64,000 nucleotides of DNA, taken from Desemzia incerta (lineage in GTDB: Bacteria > Bacillota > Bacilli > Lactobacillales > Carnobacteriaceae). The DNA lies in assembly GCF_900115825.1 (NCBI RefSeq), contig NZ_FOXW01000007.1, forward strand, positions 1 through 64,000. The letters are read 5' to 3'. Of this stretch, positions 3,824 to 11,834 are shown piece by piece; the first letter of the stretch is position 1; each line of letters opens with the position of its first letter. The notes beneath the pieces were generated by a model. That model was given only the letters and a program-made list of their open reading frames with translations, had not been told where the DNA came from and ran no database searches. A program made the translations under genes and the position numbers.

Positions 3824-4411
3824 ATGACTAAAAATACTCGTCTGATGTATATTGCATTATTAGCTGCCCAAGGGGTCGTTATTTCATTGATAGAACGATC
3901 TATTCCTTTCCCTTTTGCATTCGCTCCAGGGGCGAAATTGGGGCTGTCAAATATGATCACCATACTGGCTTTATTTACATTATCTTATAAAGACAGTTTT
4001 AAAGTTGTTTGGATGCGCCTTTTAGTAACTACCTTACTAGGAGGAACGGTTTCTACTTTTCTCTACAGTTTTGCAGGCGCTTTTTTAAGTTATTTTGGTA
4101 TGCTGGTTATACGAATGCTGGGACCAAAACGAGTAAGTTTGATTGGAGTCAGTGCTGCAGGCGGGATTTTGCATAATGTAGGGCAATTAATCGTTGCAAG
4201 CTCGATTGCTCAATCTTTTAGCGTTATGTTATATCTTCCAATTCTGTCTTTTTCCGGAATCTTTGCAGGAATAGCAGTTGGGATAGCGGCGAATTATTTG
4301 ATGGAACATGTAGCAACAATCAAAAAGATACAAAATGAAGAAGCGAAAAAGAATAAGCTTACAAGAGAATGGTATGAAGCTTCTCTGGAAAATAAATGGA
4401 ATGAGCGATGA
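3824..4411 (+). CDS. eetB: EetB, Gx-transporter-family membrane protein of the EET locus
   Basis: A 195-aa integral membrane protein of the family often annotated 'heptaprenyl diphosphate synthase component I' or 'Gx transporter'. It carries the family landmark PGAKLGLSNMITI near residue 35, followed by about five membrane helices and a basic C-terminal tail. In Listeria monocytogenes the homologue EetB is encoded in the flavin-based extracellular electron transfer locus; it may form part of the membrane complex linking demethylmenaquinol to extracellular flavoproteins, but its biochemistry is unknown. It is followed by its own terminator and by ndh2, which fits that locus. Start ATG has AAGGA upstream. 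The assignment rests on family motif plus neighbourhood. Confidence 0.85.
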   Translation: MTKNTRLMYIALLAAQGVVISLIERSIPFPFAFAPGAKLGLSNMITILALFTLSYKDSFKVVWMRLLVTTLLGGTVSTFLYSFAGAFLSYFGMLVIRMLGPKRVSLIGVSAAGGILHNVGQLIVASSIAQSFSVMLYLPILSFSGIFAGIAVGIAANYLMEHVATIKKIQNEEAKKNKLTREWYEASLENKWNER

Positions 4412-4417
4412 TTCGCT

Positions 4418-4460
4418 ACTACAAAAACAACGTCAAAGTGTTTTTGTAGTATTTTTTTTG
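4418..4460 (+). terminator. Terminator of eetB
   Basis: ACTACAAAAACA pairs perfectly with TGTTTTTGTAGT (12 bp, 9-nt loop), followed by a T-rich run. Confidence 0.9.
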
Positions 4461-4724
4461 TTAAAAGTCTTATTAAAGTAGACTTTGTTTAGTTTTTCTT
4501 TTATCTACAACTCACATGTGAAATAAAGAACAGTAAAGCGTATACAATTGACAGAAATGAGAACAAATCATGTAACATCAATATTTTTGCTTGATCAGTG
4601 TAGACATAACAAGCTAAATAAATTATAATTAACTCGTAATAATAAATAGTAAGTAAAATTTTTTTGCACTTGTTTGCTCACATAATAACAAATTATAGAA
4701 AAGAAAAGATAAGGGGTTTTTTAG
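4461..4724 (+). promoter_or_regulatory. AT-rich upstream region of ndh2
   Basis: About 260 bases of AT-rich DNA without a gene, presumably the ndh2 promoter region. A TTGACA lies near 4550 and a TTGTTT-17-TTATAG pair lies closer to the gene, but neither is decisive. A small palindrome (TCACATGTGA) at about 4512-4521 could be a regulator site. I see no riboswitch-like structure. Confidence 0.4.
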
Positions 4725-6593
4725 ATGGCAACAAAAAATATTGTTGTAGTTGGAGCTGGATATGCCGGCGTAGCAGCTGCGAAAAAATTGTCGAAACACT
4801 TTAAAAAAGATAAAGATGTTGTGATCACTTTGATCGACAAGCATTCTTATCAAACTTACATGACTGAGTTACATGAAGTTGCTGCCGGGCGTGTAGAACC
4901 AGATGCGATCCAATATGATTTACAACGATTATTTGCTCGTCAAAAAAACGTAGATGTGGTTACAGACGAAGTTCTTCATGTAGACCACGATGCTAAAACA
5001 GTCAAAACGGTTAAAACAGTATTTACGTATGACTATTTGATCTTAGCTATGGGTGGAGAGCCAAATACATTCAACGTTCCTGGAGTAAAAGAAAACGGAT
5101 TTACTTTATGGTCTTGGGAAGATGCAAATACTATTCGTCGTCATATCAAAGACACAGTAGAAGCGGCTTCAAATGAACACGATGTTGAAAAAAGAAAAGC
5201 TATGTTGACGGCTGTAGTCAGTGGAGCAGGTTTCACTGGTGTTGAAATGGTCGGAGAATTGATGGAATGGAAAGAACGTTTAGCTAAAGACAATAAATTA
5301 AATGTAGATGAATTTAGTTTGTACTTAGTAGAAGCTGCTCCAAAAATTCTTGGTGTGGTTACTGAAAAAGAACAAACAAAAGCTGAAAATTACATGTTGA
5401 AAAAAGGCATTCAAATCATCAAAGGAAATGGTGTAGCGAATGTTGAAAAAGATTCTATCGAGTTAACTGACGGGACAGTGATTCCTACACATACATTGAT
5501 TTGGACTGCTGGTGTTAAAGCTACATCAGATGTTGAAGGTTATGGAATCGAAACAGCTAGAGCTGGTCGCTTAGTTGCTAATGAATTTATGGAAGCTAAA
5601 GGAGTAAAAGATGTTTACTTGGCTGGGGACATCGTTTATTACGAAGAACCTGAAAAAGACAATACTCCAGTTCCTCAAATCGTTCAAAGTGCTGAACAAA
5701 CAGGACATACAGCCGCTGCAAATATCATTGCTTCGATTGAAGGCAAAGAAAAAACGAAACACAAAGGGAACTACCAAGGATTCATGGTTTCAATCGGTTC
5801 TCGTTATGGTGTAGCTTATTTGATGGATAAAATTCATTTGAGCGGATTCATCGCAATGTTTGTTAAACATATGGTGAACTTGTTGTACTTCTTGACTATC
5901 GGGTCAGCATTCTATTTTGTTCAATACATCAGACACGAATTCTTCTTTATTAAAGATGAACGTAATATCTTCAGAGGTCATTTATCACGCTTAGGAAACA
6001 TCCTTTGGTCAGTTCCGTTGCGAGTATTCTATGGTAGTATGTGGGCTTGGGAAGGTTTGAAAAAAACTTTTGGTTTGTTCGGTACAACGTCATGGTTTGG
6101 AGACGAAATCGTATTGCCGTTTGAATGGTTGAAAGACCCTACTACAGGAGCTTCTCAGGCAGTTGAAGAAGTTGTTGCTAAGCCGGTATTTGGTTTAAGC
6201 TATGTATACGGTGAAGAACCAATGATGGTATTCAGTAAAGCTCCAGGCTGGTTTAACTGGATCATGGAAATCATGATTCCTAATCAAGATGTTGCATTGT
6301 TCTTCCAAAAATTCATGACGATCGTTGAATTATTGATCGGATTAGCTATTATCGTAGGATTGTTTACGTGGTTGGCTAATGCTGCTACGATTGCTTTAGT
6401 CATTTCATTTGCACTCTCAGGTATGTTCTATTGGGTAAACATTTGGTTCATCCCGGTTGCATTCTCCTTGATGAATGGGTCAGGTAGAGCTTTAGGTTTA
6501 GACTACTACGTTATGCCATGGCTGCAAAAGAAACTAAGCAAGTGGTGGTATGGAGACGTCAAGTCGATTTACGAAACAGGTATTCAAAAGTAA
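4725..6593 (+). CDS. ndh2: Type II NADH dehydrogenase Ndh2 with C-terminal membrane domain (EET)
   Basis: Oxidises NADH and reduces a (demethyl)menaquinone at the cytoplasmic face of the membrane. Residues ~1-400 are a two-dinucleotide-binding flavoprotein: GAGYAGVAAAKKL (FAD) at the N-terminus, SGAGFTGVEMVGEL (NADH) near 165, and YLAGDIVYYEE near 305. Unlike the usual ~400-aa Ndh, this protein is 622 aa, with a C-terminal extension containing several hydrophobic segments and a DoxX-like end. This long form is the one encoded in the Listeria EET locus, where Ndh2 feeds a demethylmenaquinone pool separate from aerobic respiration. Start ATG is preceded by AAGGGG. Transcribed alone, between two terminators. 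Confidence 0.93.
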   Translation: MATKNIVVVGAGYAGVAAAKKLSKHFKKDKDVVITLIDKHSYQTYMTELHEVAAGRVEPDAIQYDLQRLFARQKNVDVVTDEVLHVDHDAKTVKTVKTVFTYDYLILAMGGEPNTFNVPGVKENGFTLWSWEDANTIRRHIKDTVEAASNEHDVEKRKAMLTAVVSGAGFTGVEMVGELMEWKERLAKDNKLNVDEFSLYLVEAAPKILGVVTEKEQTKAENYMLKKGIQIIKGNGVANVEKDSIELTDGTVIPTHTLIWTAGVKATSDVEGYGIETARAGRLVANEFMEAKGVKDVYLAGDIVYYEEPEKDNTPVPQIVQSAEQTGHTAAANIIASIEGKEKTKHKGNYQGFMVSIGSRYGVAYLMDKIHLSGFIAMFVKHMVNLLYFLTIGSAFYFVQYIRHEFFFIKDERNIFRGHLSRLGNILWSVPLRVFYGSMWAWEGLKKTFGLFGTTSWFGDEIVLPFEWLKDPTTGASQAVEEVVAKPVFGLSYVYGEEPMMVFSKAPGWFNWIMEIMIPNQDVALFFQKFMTIVELLIGLAIIVGLFTWLANAATIALVISFALSGMFYWVNIWFIPVAFSLMNGSGRALGLDYYVMPWLQKKLSKWWYGDVKSIYETGIQK

Positions 6594-6609
6594 AATGCGA
6601 CAAAAATGG

Positions 6610-6644
6610 GGATGGGACAGAAAACGTCTCATCCTTTATTTTGT
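6610..6644 (+). terminator. Terminator of ndh2
   Basis: GGATGGGACA pairs with CGTCTCATCC around a short A-rich loop and is followed by a T-rich tail, 16 bases after the stop codon. Confidence 0.88.
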
Positions 6645-6765
6645 TTAATGGATTTACAAATGAGTCAATAAAATATAAGCTTAAGAAAAGTCGCTGAGTT
6701 GTTCTCGTATCGTTGATAAGAGACGACGCTGCTTTGGACTCTATTATATTTTAGGATGTGTAGAT

Positions 6766-7191
6766 ATGGATTTAAAGAAACAATTACGTATGGTGCGCCG
6801 GTGGGATGTCGTTATTGTTCTTACTCTGATGCTGGCCTCTTTTCTGCCGCTTGGGGTCTTTACGTATGCACAAGCACAAGTAAAAGACGCTGAGCTGATA
6901 GCTGTTATCAGTGCAGACGGTGAACAACTGGCGGAATTTACTTTGGCAGAGGACGGGAAAACGGAAGAATATGTTTTCACAGACGAACATGGCCATGAGA
7001 ATACGATCATTCGAGACGGGTTAAAAGTTTATATGTCTGATGCCAATTGCTCAGATCAATTGTGTGTACGAAAAGGAGAAATTGACGCTGCCGGAGAGAC
7101 TATCGTCTGTCTGCCTAACCATTTGCTAGTAGAAATAGAACCTAGTCAGCCTGATGCTGATGTAGAAACCGAGTTAGATATTATCTCTTAA
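6766..7191 (+). CDS. eetA: EetA, NusG-domain-II-like extracellular protein of the EET locus
   Basis: A 141-aa protein with a basic N-terminus and one hydrophobic segment (residues ~15-36), so probably membrane-anchored with its body outside. The remainder resembles the NusG domain II family, with a late CSDQLCVRKGEI stretch and a second cysteine region VCLPNHLLVEI that together give three cysteines outside the membrane. In Listeria the equivalent EetA is encoded with EetB and is implicated in electron transfer to extracellular acceptors. Here it starts a probable two-gene unit with dmkB, 32 nt downstream. The role is inferred from locus context; the molecular function is not established. Confidence 0.85.
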   Translation: MDLKKQLRMVRRWDVVIVLTLMLASFLPLGVFTYAQAQVKDAELIAVISADGEQLAEFTLAEDGKTEEYVFTDEHGHENTIIRDGLKVYMSDANCSDQLCVRKGEIDAAGETIVCLPNHLLVEIEPSQPDADVETELDIIS

Positions 7192-7223
7192 GATAAGGTA
7201 TTCAAAGATAGAGGAGAAAGTGT

Positions 7224-8201
7224 ATGAAGATTCATCCAATGTGGAAAAAATATCCGTCCCTTCAAGCAGAATTAAAGGCTTGTAATGCTTTGATCGAAAA
7301 AAATATAACCATTAAAAACAAAGACGTTAATCAAAAAATCACAGAATTGTTGTCTTCAGGTGGGAAAATGCTGCGCCCAGCGTATACAATAATGTTTTCG
7401 CAGTACAAAAAAGATGCAGACAGCAAAAAAGCACAAGCTATAGCTGCTGCAATAGAAGTATTACATTTGGCAACTTTAGTCCATGATGATGTCATTGATG
7501 AATCACCTTTGCGTCGTGGACAAGAAACGATCAACTCGCGATATGATAATCGCGTTGCTGTCTACACAGGAGATTATTTGTTTACGGTGTGTTTCCGTTT
7601 ATTGTCAGATTATGTTGAAGATGCTGGAGCATTGCAGCTCGATAACAATGGAATGGAAAAGATCCTCATCGGAGAATTGAATCAGATGGACATGACCTTC
7701 AATCCAAAAATGACGATGAGAAATTACATTCATCAGATTCAAGGGAAGACAGCTCAGCTGTTTGCTTTGAGTTGTTATGCGGGGGCCTATGAAGAAGGAT
7801 CAGAAAAGCTGGCGAAAGCAGCTTATCAAATTGGAAATAACATCGGGTTAGCCTTTCAAATCATAGATGACATATTAGATTACACTCAAAAAACCGACGT
7901 TATGGGTAAACCTATCATGAATGATTTTAAAAAAGGAATCTATACGGCACCATTGTTATTTGCTATGCAAGAAAATCGGCGAGCTTTTGAACCGTATATT
8001 GCCAAGAAAGAACAGATCAGCGAAGAAGAACTTGAAGAAGTCTACCACCTGATCCAGCAATATCGCGGGGAAGAAAAAGCCAAAGAATTGGCTGACAAAT
8101 ATACTCAAAAAGCCTTGAAGCAAATTGAACGCCTGCCGGATAATCCGGTGAAGGAACAGTTATTAATCATTACTGAGCAAGCTTTAATGCGAAATAATTA
8201 A
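7224..8201 (+). CDS. dmkB: DmkB, polyprenyl diphosphate synthase
   Basis: A trans-isoprenyl diphosphate synthase that builds the side chain for demethylmenaquinone. Both aspartate-rich motifs are present: HDDVIDE (DDxxD-type, residues ~90-96) followed by the LRRG basic patch, and QIIDDILDY near 214. The length of 325 aa matches HepT/IspB-type catalytic subunits. Ribosome site GAGGAG lies 8 nt before the ATG. It is likely cotranscribed with eetA. Because a membrane prenyltransferase (dmkA) and the special Ndh2 are encoded nearby, it is best read as the EET-dedicated enzyme rather than a general housekeeping synthase. Product chain length cannot be deduced. Confidence 0.9.
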   Translation: MKIHPMWKKYPSLQAELKACNALIEKNITIKNKDVNQKITELLSSGGKMLRPAYTIMFSQYKKDADSKKAQAIAAAIEVLHLATLVHDDVIDESPLRRGQETINSRYDNRVAVYTGDYLFTVCFRLLSDYVEDAGALQLDNNGMEKILIGELNQMDMTFNPKMTMRNYIHQIQGKTAQLFALSCYAGAYEEGSEKLAKAAYQIGNNIGLAFQIIDDILDYTQKTDVMGKPIMNDFKKGIYTAPLLFAMQENRRAFEPYIAKKEQISEEELEEVYHLIQQYRGEEKAKELADKYTQKALKQIERLPDNPVKEQLLIITEQALMRNN

Positions 8202-8205
8202 GAAT

Positions 8206-8231
8206 AAAACCTCCTGTAAAGAGGTTTTTTC
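8206..8231 (+). terminator. Terminator of eetA-dmkB
   Basis: AAAACCTC and GAGGTTTT form a stem around a short loop, followed by a T run, four bases after the dmkB stop codon. Confidence 0.9.
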
Positions 8232-8264
8232 TTTTTATTGTGAAAATGTTCATTAAATAGTCAA

Positions 8265-8290
8265 AAGTTAATGAAAAATTTCATTAACTT
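8265..8290. promoter_or_regulatory. 26-bp palindrome upstream of the pplA promoter (probable operator)
   Basis: A perfect inverted repeat with 12-bp arms (AAGTTAATGAAA / TTTCATTAACTT) separated by AA. It ends 11 bp before the pplA -35 box. There is no T tract and the upstream operon already has a terminator, so a DNA operator is more likely than a terminator. It does not match the Rex, CcpA, PerR or CodY consensus sequences I know. Confidence 0.7.
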
Positions 8291-8301
8291 CCTAAAAGTT
8301 A

Positions 8302-8330
8302 TTGTTTTTATTCTATCTAAGTGCTATTAT
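8302..8330 (+). promoter_or_regulatory. pplA promoter
   Basis: -35 TTGTTT and -10 TATTAT are separated by exactly 17 bp, giving a start near 8337 and a ~70-nt leader before pplA. The palindrome just upstream suggests regulation. Confidence 0.8.
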
Positions 8331-8410
8331 AAAAGCGTAATAAGGAATGCGATTATTTGTGAAAACAAACACAAAAGCTACATAAAACAAAACAAAAAGG
8401 GGTTTTAGCA

Positions 8411-8896
8411 ATGAAAAAATTATTCTCAGTATCAACATTAACTTTAGCATCAGCATTAGTATTGGCAGCATGCGGAGGCGGCAATGAAGAAGCAGCAAGT
8501 ACTACAGAATCAGCAGCTTCAGAAGGCGGATTACAAGATGGAACTTACAAACTAGTAGAAAAAAATCTTGATGAAAATGGTTGGAAAACAGACTTCTCTA
8601 TTACTGTAGAAGGCGGCAAAATCACTGAATCAAACTACGAAAACTTGAATGAAGCAGGAGCTAAAAAATCTGAGGACGAAGGCTACCAAGAAAAAATGGC
8701 AGAAGTTGCTGGAGTAGGTCCAGCTGATTACTTCCCTGAATTAAACGAACAATTAGTTGAAACTCAAGATCCTGAAGCAGTAGAAGTCGTGACTGGCGCA
8801 ACTCATTCTTCAGAATCTTTCAAAGAATACGCACAACAATTGATTGATGCTGCTGAAGAAGGCAATACTGAAACAATCGAAATCGACAACAAATAG
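8411..8896 (+). CDS. pplA: PplA, flavinylated extracellular FMN-binding lipoprotein
   Basis: A secreted lipoprotein that would carry a covalent FMN and act as the terminal electron shuttle of the EET pathway. The signal peptide (residues 1-20) ends in lipobox LAAC with the lipidated Cys at about 21, then a low-complexity Ser/Glu/Ala linker and one FMN-binding domain. The motif VVTGATHSS near residue 125 matches the ApbE-target consensus (S/T-G-A-T), so the Thr is the expected flavinylation site. At 161 aa it has a single flavin domain, whereas Listeria PplA has two. Its own promoter and palindrome separate it from dmkB, and fmnB follows 97 bp on. Confidence 0.9.
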   Translation: MKKLFSVSTLTLASALVLAACGGGNEEAASTTESAASEGGLQDGTYKLVEKNLDENGWKTDFSITVEGGKITESNYENLNEAGAKKSEDEGYQEKMAEVAGVGPADYFPELNEQLVETQDPEAVEVVTGATHSSESFKEYAQQLIDAAEEGNTETIEIDNK

Positions 8897-8993
8897 TTTC
8901 TATTCTCAATAATTTATTTATAATAACAGGTAGGGGCAGAACATGTTCCTGCCTGTTTTATTTATGATTCAAATCAGTGAGGAGAAAACAAAA

Positions 8994-10067
8994 ATGATAA
9001 GGAATAACCAAAACAAAAAAAGGTTCGTTTGGTTTTTGACGGGACTATGCTTTTTATTGTTAGCTGCGTGCAGTTCGGGTGTTGAAGAAGAGCAGACTCT
9101 ATTAAAAACTCCCTATGAACAAACAGAGTTCTTGATGGGAACATATGTAACGTTGCGTGTTTATGATGAAGGAAAAGAAGCTGTTCTCGAACAAGGATTT
9201 AAGAGAGTCGAAGAATTAGCAGATAAAATAACGGTTAATGAGCCAGACTCAGAAATAGACAAAATTAATGAATTGGCTGGAAAAGAAGCCGTAGAATTGT
9301 CTGATGAAGTTTACCCATTGGTTGAGGCAGCCGCTGAATACAGTGAGGTCTCTGATGGAGGATTTGATTACACTGTTGGACCAATCACAGATTTATGGCG
9401 GATCGGCTTTGACGATGCCAGAAAGCCTGAACAGAGTGAAATTGATGCAGCATTAAATTTAGTAGACTTCAGTAAAGTTGAATTTGACACAGAAAATAAA
9501 AGTGTTTTCTTGACTGAAGAAGGTATGGCACTAGACTTGGGAGCTATTGCTAAAGGGTATATTGCAGATGAAATAAGAAAGTTATTTGAAGATTCAGGAG
9601 TTACGACAGCTATTATTGATTTAGGCGGAAATGTTATCGTTATGGGAGGTTCACCTACTAGAGAAGGGGAAGCTTGGAATGTTGGCATACAAGATCCATT
9701 ATCTGAAAGAGGAGAAACAGTTGGGAAAACGGCGCAAAAAAATCGCTCGATCGTGACTTCTGGAATCTACGAGCGTTACTTAGAGGTAGACGGAGAAATT
9801 TACCATCATTTGATGAACCCTCAAACTGGGTATCCATTTGACAATGAAATTGCTGGTGTCTCTATTATTTCTGAACGATCTGTTGATGGAGATGCACTTT
9901 CTACAGTAGTATTCGGTCTCGGGTTGGAAAAAGGCTTGGAGTATGTGAATAATCGAGAGGATATAGAAGCTGTTTTCATTACAAAAGATAAAGAAGTTTA
10001 CACTTCAAACGGAATGAAAGACAATTTTGAATTGACCAATGAAGAGTACACTTGGGTCAATCAGTAG
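8994..10067 (+). CDS. fmnB: FmnB, ApbE-type FAD:protein FMN transferase lipoprotein
   Basis: Transfers FMN from FAD to a Thr of partner proteins on the outer membrane face, here most obviously PplA. The N-terminus is a lipoprotein signal with lipobox LAAC; the Cys is near residue 26. ApbE landmarks follow: FLMGTYVTLRVYD at the domain start, ALDLGAIAKGYIAD, the HHLMNPQTGYP segment and DGDALSTVVFGLG near the end with the metal-binding Asp/Thr region. I chose the ATG at 8994, with AGGAG upstream, over an in-frame ATG at 8943. It lies in the same direction as pplA and dmkA. Confidence 0.92.
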   Translation: MIRNNQNKKRFVWFLTGLCFLLLAACSSGVEEEQTLLKTPYEQTEFLMGTYVTLRVYDEGKEAVLEQGFKRVEELADKITVNEPDSEIDKINELAGKEAVELSDEVYPLVEAAAEYSEVSDGGFDYTVGPITDLWRIGFDDARKPEQSEIDAALNLVDFSKVEFDTENKSVFLTEEGMALDLGAIAKGYIADEIRKLFEDSGVTTAIIDLGGNVIVMGGSPTREGEAWNVGIQDPLSERGETVGKTAQKNRSIVTSGIYERYLEVDGEIYHHLMNPQTGYPFDNEIAGVSIISERSVDGDALSTVVFGLGLEKGLEYVNNREDIEAVFITKDKEVYTSNGMKDNFELTNEEYTWVNQ

Positions 10068-10110
10068 ATAGTTTTAAGGTAGATAACAAACATTGAAGGA
10101 AGTGCACGAT

Positions 10111-11052
10111 ATGAGTATGCCCGTTTTTCTAGAATTAGTAGAAATCAGAACTAAATTAGCCAGCTTGTTCCCTTTTACCTTAGGTATATTATTTTCAGTT
10201 TATTATTTTTCAGAATTCAATGCAGTTAATACAATATTATTTTTTATAGCGATGTTGGTGTTCGACATGGCGACGACTGCCATCAATAATACGATGGACT
10301 ATGTCAAAGCTAAAAATATGCATTATAAAGAACATGAAAATATTTTAGGAAAAGCTGGTTTATCAGTTAAACAAGCCACTACCTTAATTGTAGCGATGAT
10401 CGGTTTTTCTGCCATTATTGGATTGACTTTAGTTTATAGAACCAATATTTTGTTGTTGGTTATTGGAGCGCTATGCTTTGCGGTAGGTATATTGTATACT
10501 TTCGGTCCGTTCCCAATCTCTAGAATGCCTTTAGGAGAAGTGATGTCAGGATTGACAATGGGCTTTGGTATTTTCTTTATAGCTGTATTTATCAATGTTC
10601 CTTCAACACTTATTACGGCGCTGGTTCTCGACTGGCCAAGCTTCATGCTGAGCGGCAGTCTGCAAAATATTGCAGCTGTCTTCCTAGCATCGCTGCCGCT
10701 GGTATTCACAATTGCAAATATTATGTTGTCGAATAACATTTGCGACTATGAAACAGATATTACCAACCACCGGTATACGTTGACGTTTTATATTGGAAAG
10801 CCGTTAGCGATCAAATTGTACGCGTGGCTTTACTATGGAGCATTTGCCGCATCAACATTAGCTGTCTTTGCAGGCGTTAATCCAATATGGATGTTAGGAA
10901 TATGGTTGGTTTTCCCAATCGTGCAAAAAAGCATCCAGCTTTTTAAAGACAAGCAAGATAAAGCGACCACATTCGGGTTGGCTATTAAAAATTTAGTCGT
11001 TTACCATGGAGCGCAAATCGTATTGTACAGTCTGGGGATTTTATTTGGTTAA
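10111..11052 (+). CDS. dmkA: DmkA, 1,4-dihydroxy-2-naphthoate prenyltransferase (UbiA family)
   Basis: Membrane prenyltransferase that joins dihydroxynaphthoate to the polyprenyl chain to make demethylmenaquinone. The UbiA family signatures are NNTMDYVKAKN (first Asp motif, residues ~55) and NNICDYETDITNHRYT (second Asp motif, ~208), set among about eight to nine membrane helices. I chose ATG 10111, with AAGGAAG ahead of it, over TTG 10093. It is 43 bp downstream of fmnB in the same orientation. Its pairing with dmkB in the EET block argues for a dedicated EET quinone. No genes for dihydroxynaphthoate synthesis are seen in the window. Confidence 0.9.
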   Translation: MSMPVFLELVEIRTKLASLFPFTLGILFSVYYFSEFNAVNTILFFIAMLVFDMATTAINNTMDYVKAKNMHYKEHENILGKAGLSVKQATTLIVAMIGFSAIIGLTLVYRTNILLLVIGALCFAVGILYTFGPFPISRMPLGEVMSGLTMGFGIFFIAVFINVPSTLITALVLDWPSFMLSGSLQNIAAVFLASLPLVFTIANIMLSNNICDYETDITNHRYTLTFYIGKPLAIKLYAWLYYGAFAASTLAVFAGVNPIWMLGIWLVFPIVQKSIQLFKDKQDKATTFGLAIKNLVVYHGAQIVLYSLGILFG

Positions 11053-11093: not shown

Positions 11094-11834
11094 ATGGGGT
11101 TTAGAACATTGTGTTACCATGAATTTCGCAAACGAGAAGAAATAACTGAAACAGGTCCATCGACAATAAAAGTTGCGCAAGATTATCAAGATGCATTGCC
11201 GCGACCGTTGTTTACTTATGTCGAAGATTTTGAAGAGCAAATAGCTTATTTAAAAGCGGAAGGTTATCACTTTTTGACGTTGGAAGAAGTACGGGCATAT
11301 TACACAGGACAAGATATTCCGAAGAAAGCTATTTTACTAACGGTTGACGATGCGTATCAATCTTTTAAAAAGTATGCTTACCCGATTCTAAAAAAACACA
11401 ACATTCCCATCGTTTCTTTTGTAGTATTGGGATGGTTGAGTGAAGAGAGAGAATCGTATGCACCTGATCTTTCTGTAACGATGAGCAAAGAAGAATTGTC
11501 AGAGATGGCAGATAGTATAACAACGGCTAATCATACAACGCGATTGCATCAAAGGTATGCAGACGGCAGCACGGCTTTCCAAAATATTTCTTTTGAAGAG
11601 TTGAAAAGTGATTTGGATGAATGTGGAGAGTTTGTAGAAGAGCCTTCAGTGTTTGCTTATCCTTTTGGCATTTACAACAAAGAAGATGTGCTGCGCTTAA
11701 AGAACGCAGGTATGGAGTTTGCTTTTACATGCGAGTCAGGGATGAACACGCGCCTGACAACACCGCTGGAATTGCACCGGGAGGTTATTCCATTAGGGAT
11801 AGCTTTAAAACAATTTAAAGATTTAGTGAAATAA
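11094..11834 (+). CDS. NodB-type polysaccharide deacetylase-like protein
   Basis: A 246-aa carbohydrate esterase 4-like protein. Motifs: LCYHEF at the very N-terminus, LLTVDDAYQSF (the DD metal/base motif) near residue 82, NHTTRLH (His motif) near 145 and FAYPFGIYN near 195. There is no signal peptide or membrane anchor, and an in-frame stop lies 5 codons before the ATG, so the protein as read would be cytoplasmic unless a secretion segment was lost. It follows dmkA by 41 bp, so it may be cotranscribed with the EET genes; no functional link is known. The substrate is unknown. Confidence 0.8.
   Translation: MGFRTLCYHEFRKREEITETGPSTIKVAQDYQDALPRPLFTYVEDFEEQIAYLKAEGYHFLTLEEVRAYYTGQDIPKKAILLTVDDAYQSFKKYAYPILKKHNIPIVSFVVLGWLSEERESYAPDLSVTMSKEELSEMADSITTANHTTRLHQRYADGSTAFQNISFEELKSDLDECGEFVEEPSVFAYPFGIYNKEDVLRLKNAGMEFAFTCESGMNTRLTTPLELHREVIPLGIALKQFKDLVK

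Follow-up and report, generated by a model that had tools for sequence, protein, structure and literature searches.

A putative flavin-based extracellular electron transfer locus with a single-site PplA in Desemzia incerta

The stretch of DNA analysed in this study (the window) comprises 64 kb at the beginning of contig C17 (131 kb) in the genome of Desemzia incerta (2.33 Mb, rated 99.99% complete), a fermentative member of the family Carnobacteriaceae; the genome outside the window was examined through family searches and selected stretches. Seven open reading frames (ORFs), eetB, ndh2, eetA, dmkB, pplA, fmnB and dmkA, occupy positions 3824-11052 of the window, all on the plus strand (Table 1). 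A gene set of the Listeria type for extracellular electron transfer (EET) had been proposed at this site from the sequence letters, and this proposal was confirmed: the ORF coordinates were correct, and all seven proteins scored above the Pfam cut-off for the expected family, the assignments being corroborated with NCBIfam. Six of the genes align with the annotated EET locus of Listeria monocytogenes (dmkA, unannotated in the Listeria record, was left out of the comparison), with identities of 66% for EetB, 55% for Ndh2, 53% for FmnB, 46% for DmkB, and 43% for both EetA and PplA. Desemzia sp. RIT 804 is the closest named relative (93% identity in Ndh2). Each of the seven genes has a ribosome-binding site and an intact reading frame and motifs, and the clustering of EET genes is conserved in approximately 70 Lactobacillales loci. 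Taken together, the intact family motifs, the homology of six genes to the Listeria locus and the conserved clustering make it highly probable that the locus encodes a flavin-based EET (FLEET) pathway, which in this bacterium has a single-site PplA, no dedicated FmnA, no dihydroxynaphthoate (DHNA) synthesis of its own and a one-strand gene order, probably shared with Streptococcus and Abiotrophia through horizontal transfer. The locus is a variant of a known system, differing from it in a few respects and leaving the known pathway unchanged. A literature search found no paper linking Desemzia with EET.

Table 1. Features of the predicted EET locus of D. incerta (positions in the window; ECF, energy-coupling factor; FAD, flavin adenine dinucleotide; FMN, flavin mononucleotide; aa, amino acids; z, z-score)
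Feature	Position	Strand	Evidence and remarks
eetB, putative ECF-S-like FAD exporter subunit	3824..4411	+	Pfam Hpre_diP_synt_I 161.8 bits; 66% to Listeria EetB; function from PMC9973259
Intrinsic terminator 3' of eetB	4420..4459	+	-14.7 kcal/mol, z -3.8
ndh2, type-II NADH dehydrogenase with C-terminal membrane extension (DoxX/DoxD-like)	4725..6593	+	Pyr_redox_2 149.6 bits; 55% to Listeria Ndh2
Intrinsic terminator 3' of ndh2	6608..6646	+	-20.2 kcal/mol, z -5.1
eetA, NusG_II-domain membrane protein	6766..7191	+	NusG_II 95.5 bits; 43% to Listeria EetA
dmkB, polyprenyl diphosphate synthase	7224..8201	+	polyprenyl_synt 224 bits; intact DDVID and DDILD motifs
Terminator 3' of dmkB	8206..8240	+	z -4.1; palindromic, could act on both strands
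pplA, 161-aa lipoprotein with one FMN-bind domain	8411..8896	+	FMN_bind 29.4 bits (cut-off 22); lipobox LAAC
Strong terminator between pplA and fmnB	8925..8964	+	-23.3 kcal/mol, z -5.8
fmnB, ApbE-type FAD:protein FMN transferase, lipoprotein	8994..10067	+	ApbE 287 bits; 408 bits to PDB 7esa; DGDALST motif
dmkA, DHNA polyprenyltransferase (UbiA family)	10111..11052	+	UbiA 73.8 bits; NCBIfam NF009926 334.6 bits (cut-off 316)
Polysaccharide deacetylase	11094..11834	+	41 bp 3' of dmkA, no terminator between

Four hairpins followed by U-rich tails were identified 3' of eetB, ndh2, dmkB and pplA (z-scores of -3.8 to -5.8), which bears out the predicted division of the locus into five units: eetB, ndh2, eetA-dmkB, pplA and fmnB-dmkA. 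The last of these probably extends into the polysaccharide deacetylase gene, which would be co-transcribed with dmkA and whose product is unlikely to play a role in EET. For fmnB, the start at position 8994 is preferred over the listed one (8943), since the latter falls within the terminator hairpin; for dmkA, position 10111 is likewise the more likely start. Ndh2 had also been correctly described as the long form of the enzyme (622 aa), as its matches to solved type-II NADH dehydrogenases (approximately 400 aa) stop near residue 396. The eetA gene is the sole NusG_II-domain gene found in the genome.

A feature absent from the original prediction emerged only in the present analysis: PplA carries one flavin domain and not two. 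The protein contains a single flavinylation site, EVVTGATHS, with T131 as the predicted flavin-bearing residue, and is about half the length of Listeria PplA, which has 299 aa and two flavin sites (PMC9973259). Its score against the NCBIfam model NF041941 (183.8 bits) is below the cut-off of 325, and the match covers positions 2-177 of 302. A lipobox is present in both FmnB and PplA, and PplA is thus a lipoprotein with an FMN-bind fold and a [ST]GAT flavinylation site, encoded beside fmnB. The occurrence in the same locus of an ApbE-type transferase and of a substrate with a flavinylation motif supports the flavinylation branch of the pathway. The AlphaFold model of PplA, confident over residues 38-161, resembles CPE2226 of Clostridium perfringens (PDB 3o6u), a structural-genomics construct of no assigned function that has a one-domain FMN-bind fold and was compared here without its genomic context (root mean square deviation of 1.1-1.2 Å, 45% identity).

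The one-domain state is common in the family: among 18 Carnobacteriaceae genomes, an intact one-domain PplA was found in 12 and a two-domain protein in 2, while 4 contained no intact gene. One-domain PplA proteins also occur in Streptococcus and in two Vagococcus species, and the PplA of Abiotrophia has two domains. The one-domain Vagococcus proteins group with domain 2 of the PplA of their relatives, which indicates that this state was gained more than once or was itself lost repeatedly. According to published modelling, FMN-bind domains of the larger subtype (FMN-bind2) are usually present in even numbers, with two packing face to face (PMC10979944); the PplA of Desemzia, having one such domain per chain, departs from this pattern. 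However, this domain retains the insertions found in each half of two-domain PplA, which makes it a reasonable guess that the protein forms a homodimer. Found in most of the family, the one-site PplA may serve as a minimal electron-transfer lipoprotein for asking if each chain requires two flavins.

The possibility that FmnB has another FMN-bind substrate was rejected, as a single FMN_bind protein of the genome scored above the cut-off. Nor was a flavinylated fumarate reductase found in the genome, the FAD_binding_2 matches spanning only about 30-43 of 414 model positions. The genome does encode a second ApbE, devoid of a signal peptide (L084:6673-9501, minus strand; contig C15 of genome G000, approximately 201.7-204.5 kb), whose gene adjoins those of two FMN_red proteins. 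The larger of these (FMN_red plus PAS_10, 416 aa) bears three tandem flavinylation-like motifs at its C-terminus (DAVSGAS, DATSGAS and DAVSSAS). These proteins fit a class of ApbE-associated FMN_red proteins reported in PMC10979944, and three tandem motifs on one tail look unusual. In another genome of the family (G006, locus L149), pplA is reduced to a fragment and fmnB is split in two frames, with ndh2, eetB, dmkB and dmkA intact; this bacterium has apparently lost the flavinylated branch.

EetA and EetB had been proposed to act together as membrane electron carriers, a role that no longer seems tenable for EetB. In Listeria, this protein is the FAD-binding S-subunit of an ECF-type FAD exporter, in which it works together with FmnA and EcfA/EcfA' (PMC9973259), and its name at NCBI is 'flavinylation system FAD exporter subunit'. 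By analogy, EetB of Desemzia is predicted to be an FAD-binding exporter subunit and not an electron carrier, so that there would be no electron-carrying EetA/B pair. It follows that the window, which had been described as devoid of exporter genes, contains the component of the exporter that would bind the substrate; the accompanying statement that the window lacks fmnA was correct.

The genome search for ribU, ecf and menaquinone genes, suggested earlier as a check, was performed here. Two CbiQ/EcfT-type genes were detected. One of them, ecfT, is located together with ecfA/ecfA' at C17:91-94 kb, i.e. on the same contig and 82 kb from the locus, where the module is flanked by ribosomal-protein genes; its product is closer to Listeria FmnA (63% identity) than to Listeria EcfT (58%). 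The other, on contig C5, was rejected as a candidate FmnA, since it shows 24% identity and forms part of a different ECF operon, which also encodes a PF07155 S component and a fused ATPase. A separate dedicated fmnA (a second ECF-T gene) was thus not found, EcfT being the only close homologue encoded by the two CbiQ-family genes of the genome, which makes the use of the shared EcfT module by EetB the likely arrangement. One published result weighs against it: Listeria EcfT is unable to replace FmnA in export (PMC9973259), and for this reason FAD export through the shared EcfT/EcfA/EcfA' module is treated here as an assumption. As candidates for flavin uptake and thus for RibU, the genome encodes several more ECF S-components, including the PF07155 'riboflavin-type' one. 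The operon on contig C5 (L095:6090-10089, minus strand) consists of genes for this 'riboflavin-type' S component, a 577-aa fused double ATPase and a divergent T subunit, and adjoins a 282-aa gene that resembles, by eye and without a family search, SAM hydroxide adenosyltransferase.

The mechanism by which ECF transporters work as exporters has yet to be explained. Because Listeria can employ separate T subunits for import and for export, it is hard there to tell the contribution of T from that of S. With EetB but a single close homologue of FmnA/EcfT, the present genome offers a natural test case: the direction of transport would have to be set by the S-subunit alone. A bolder reading, which we find rather doubtful, is that one ECF module may serve both flavin import and FAD export, the choice of S-subunit (EetB or a RibU-type protein) being all that decides the direction, and that a homodimer of one-site PplA may rebuild the two-flavin wire of Listeria.

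The supply of quinone also differs from what had been expected, namely a dedicated demethylmenaquinone. Neither menD nor menB gave a match over the cut-off in the genome (menF, menH, menC and menE lay outside this search). A menD-like match was rejected because the protein is a pyruvate oxidase, and a menB-like one because it is a short-chain enoyl-CoA hydratase (crotonase) encoded in a butyrate-type gene cluster. A bona fide menG was not found in the genome (the best UbiE/MenG-type match scored 43 bits), and cytochrome bd gave no match over the cut-off. Lacking menD and menB, the bacterium would be unable to make demethylmenaquinone from scratch, and DHNA is probably obtained from outside. 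The genome contains two pairs of genes for a polyprenyl synthase and a UbiA prenyltransferase, namely dmkB/dmkA and a pair outside the EET locus (C15:220.9-222.8 kb of G000; L094:6902-8809, plus strand), which encodes a polyprenyl diphosphate synthase and a DHNA-prenyltransferase-like protein. The quinone is probably demethylmenaquinone built on scavenged DHNA, as in Lactiplantibacillus, and we infer that Desemzia makes it only when DHNA is available. Lactiplantibacillus plantarum is likewise a fermentative host without DHNA synthesis; it possesses more than one prenyl-quinone gene set (the literature gives two routes, dmkA plus lp_1135, as in Desemzia) and performs EET with exogenous DHNA (PMC8837199, PMC9888254, PMC10746273).

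From this gene content we infer the following course of electron transfer and transport in Desemzia. Ndh2 would oxidise cytosolic NADH and pass the electrons either to DHNA itself or to demethylmenaquinone, which DmkA and DmkB would make from scavenged DHNA. The electrons would then cross to the outer face of the membrane, perhaps aided by EetA, and be received by the FMN that FmnB is predicted to attach to Thr131 of the lipoprotein PplA. Finally, PplA or free flavin/DHNA would reduce ferric iron, an electrode or another outside acceptor. FAD, the substrate of FmnB, would leave the cell through EetB and the shared EcfT/EcfA/EcfA' module, and the pathway as a whole would regenerate NAD+ during fermentation. 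Two observations in other bacteria speak against parts of this scheme. A Listeria ΔeetA strain shows no EET phenotype (PMC9973259), which renders the step assigned to EetA uncertain, although L. plantarum requires eetA/eetB for flavin-dependent EET (PMC9888254). Moreover, dmkA and dmkB are dispensable in L. plantarum (PMC9888254), and the bound quinone may therefore not be the real carrier.

The dispensability of these two genes, together with the action of DHNA as a shuttle in L. plantarum (PMC9888254), would also fit a locus devoted mainly to NADH:DHNA/quinone cycling, with soluble quinone shuttles or oxygen serving to regenerate NAD+; PplA would then be a minor flavin reductase and the reduction of extracellular metal incidental. 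In L. plantarum, flavin-dependent iron reduction is independent of pplA, but DHNA-dependent reduction of iron and of an anode requires it (PMC9888254). Alkalibacterium and Lacticigenium keep the ndh2 and dmk genes without pplA in the locus, whereas both Desemzia genomes, like most of the family, have kept pplA and fmnB with intact sites. On this evidence we consider cycling as the main function unlikely, and electron transfer to an outside acceptor is the preferred interpretation.

The EET locus of L. monocytogenes has the structure dmkB-eetB-eetA-ndh2 / pplA-fmnB-dmkA-fmnA (Light et al. 2018, as cited in PMC9973259). Desemzia shares with it all of these genes except fmnA, as well as the long Ndh2 and, presumably, the role of EetB as an FAD exporter subunit. 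In contrast to the two divergent groups of Listeria, with a two-site PplA and fmnA at the locus, the genes of Desemzia lie on one strand in five units, with eetB apart from eetA, a one-site PplA, no fmnA and no DHNA synthesis. Divergent orientation of dmkA-fmnB-pplA and ndh2-(eetA)-eetB-dmkB is found in Listeria, Enterococcus, most Vagococcus and the other Carnobacteriaceae examined. Relatives of Lactiplantibacillus (L081, L083) also differ from Desemzia in their divergent order, in their two-domain PplA and in the ecfA-ecfA'-T genes beside the locus. In loci of Lacticigenium and Alkalibacterium (L005, L007, L009, L011), ndh2, dmkA and dmkB are retained in divergent order, and pplA, fmnB, eetA and eetB were not detected in the fetched stretch.

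The predicted difference in gene order from Listeria is real, but this genome is not alone in it: in both Desemzia genomes all the genes lie on one strand in the same order, and Desemzia has the core order ndh2>dmkB>pplA>fmnB>dmkA in common with Streptococcus and Abiotrophia (L012, L021, L023, L029, L041, L049, L052). An order unique to D. incerta was accordingly rejected. Streptococcus also resembles Desemzia in its single-domain PplA. Unlike in Desemzia, eetB is on the opposite strand in the Streptococcus/Abiotrophia loci, Streptococcus has its eetA-like gene at the far end, and Abiotrophia has the two-domain PplA. No functional data for these EET-type loci were found in a literature search.

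In a tree of concatenated Ndh2, FmnB and DmkB rooted on Listeria, Desemzia formed a clade with Streptococcus and Abiotrophia, its sister group, with a support of 100/99; another concatenation gave 99. The same grouping was obtained with single genes (Ndh2, 99; DmkB, 100; FmnB, 88/90). In the approximately unbiased (AU) test, constraining Desemzia to the core Carnobacteriaceae was rejected (p-AU 0.008), as was holding the whole family together (p-AU 1.8e-5, a figure inflated by G016, which is placed beside Listeria). Since Ndh2, FmnB and DmkB place Desemzia outside its own family, horizontal transfer is suggested; the simplest reading, held with moderate confidence, is that at least part of the locus was transferred between families, in one direction or the other. 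Such incongruence suggests that a respiration-like trait may be able to move between families of lactic-acid-type bacteria. Several points weigh against transfer. The DmkA tree is weak (68), and the DmkA, PplA and EetB trees lend no independent support to the link with Streptococcus. PplA falls with Carnobacteriaceae (Shimodaira-Hasegawa-like approximate likelihood ratio test, SH-aLRT, 83; 123 columns), the long branches of Streptococcus/Abiotrophia are in play, and the tested clade was named only after a first tree had been viewed.

The position of PplA and the unresolved EetB tree would also suit two independent origins of the one-strand order, one in Desemzia and the other in Streptococcus/Abiotrophia, without any shared transfer. 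The same can be said of eetA, which lies between ndh2 and dmkB in Desemzia versus the far end and the opposite strand in Streptococcus, and of eetB, whose position differs too. Set against this are the support values uniting these bacteria for Ndh2, DmkB, FmnB and their concatenations, and the AU rejection of Desemzia among core Carnobacteriaceae; independent origin seems to us improbable, and a shared transfer of the locus, in whole or in part, is preferred. Finally, it is very improbable that the locus is a decaying, non-functional remnant, with genes scattered into units, a PplA domain lost and parts missing from relatives: pplA and fmnB are indeed broken in G006, four of the family genomes have no intact PplA, and the Alkalibacterium/Lacticigenium loci have ndh2, dmkA and dmkB with no pplA or fmnB in reach, but all seven Desemzia frames are intact with their motifs and ribosome-binding sites, the second Desemzia species conserves the genes in the same order, and single-domain PplA is intact in two-thirds of the family genomes (12 of 18).

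Absence of EetA from the relatives was rejected, as the gene is unlinked in most of them. In most other Carnobacteriaceae, an EetA-like NusG_II gene was found away from the EET locus. In two genomes (L153 of G003 and L161 of G011) it adjoins a ribose-phosphate pyrophosphokinase gene, as identified with Pfam, and in L155, L158, L160, L163 and L169 the neighbouring gene matches in length, a correspondence of lengths alone.

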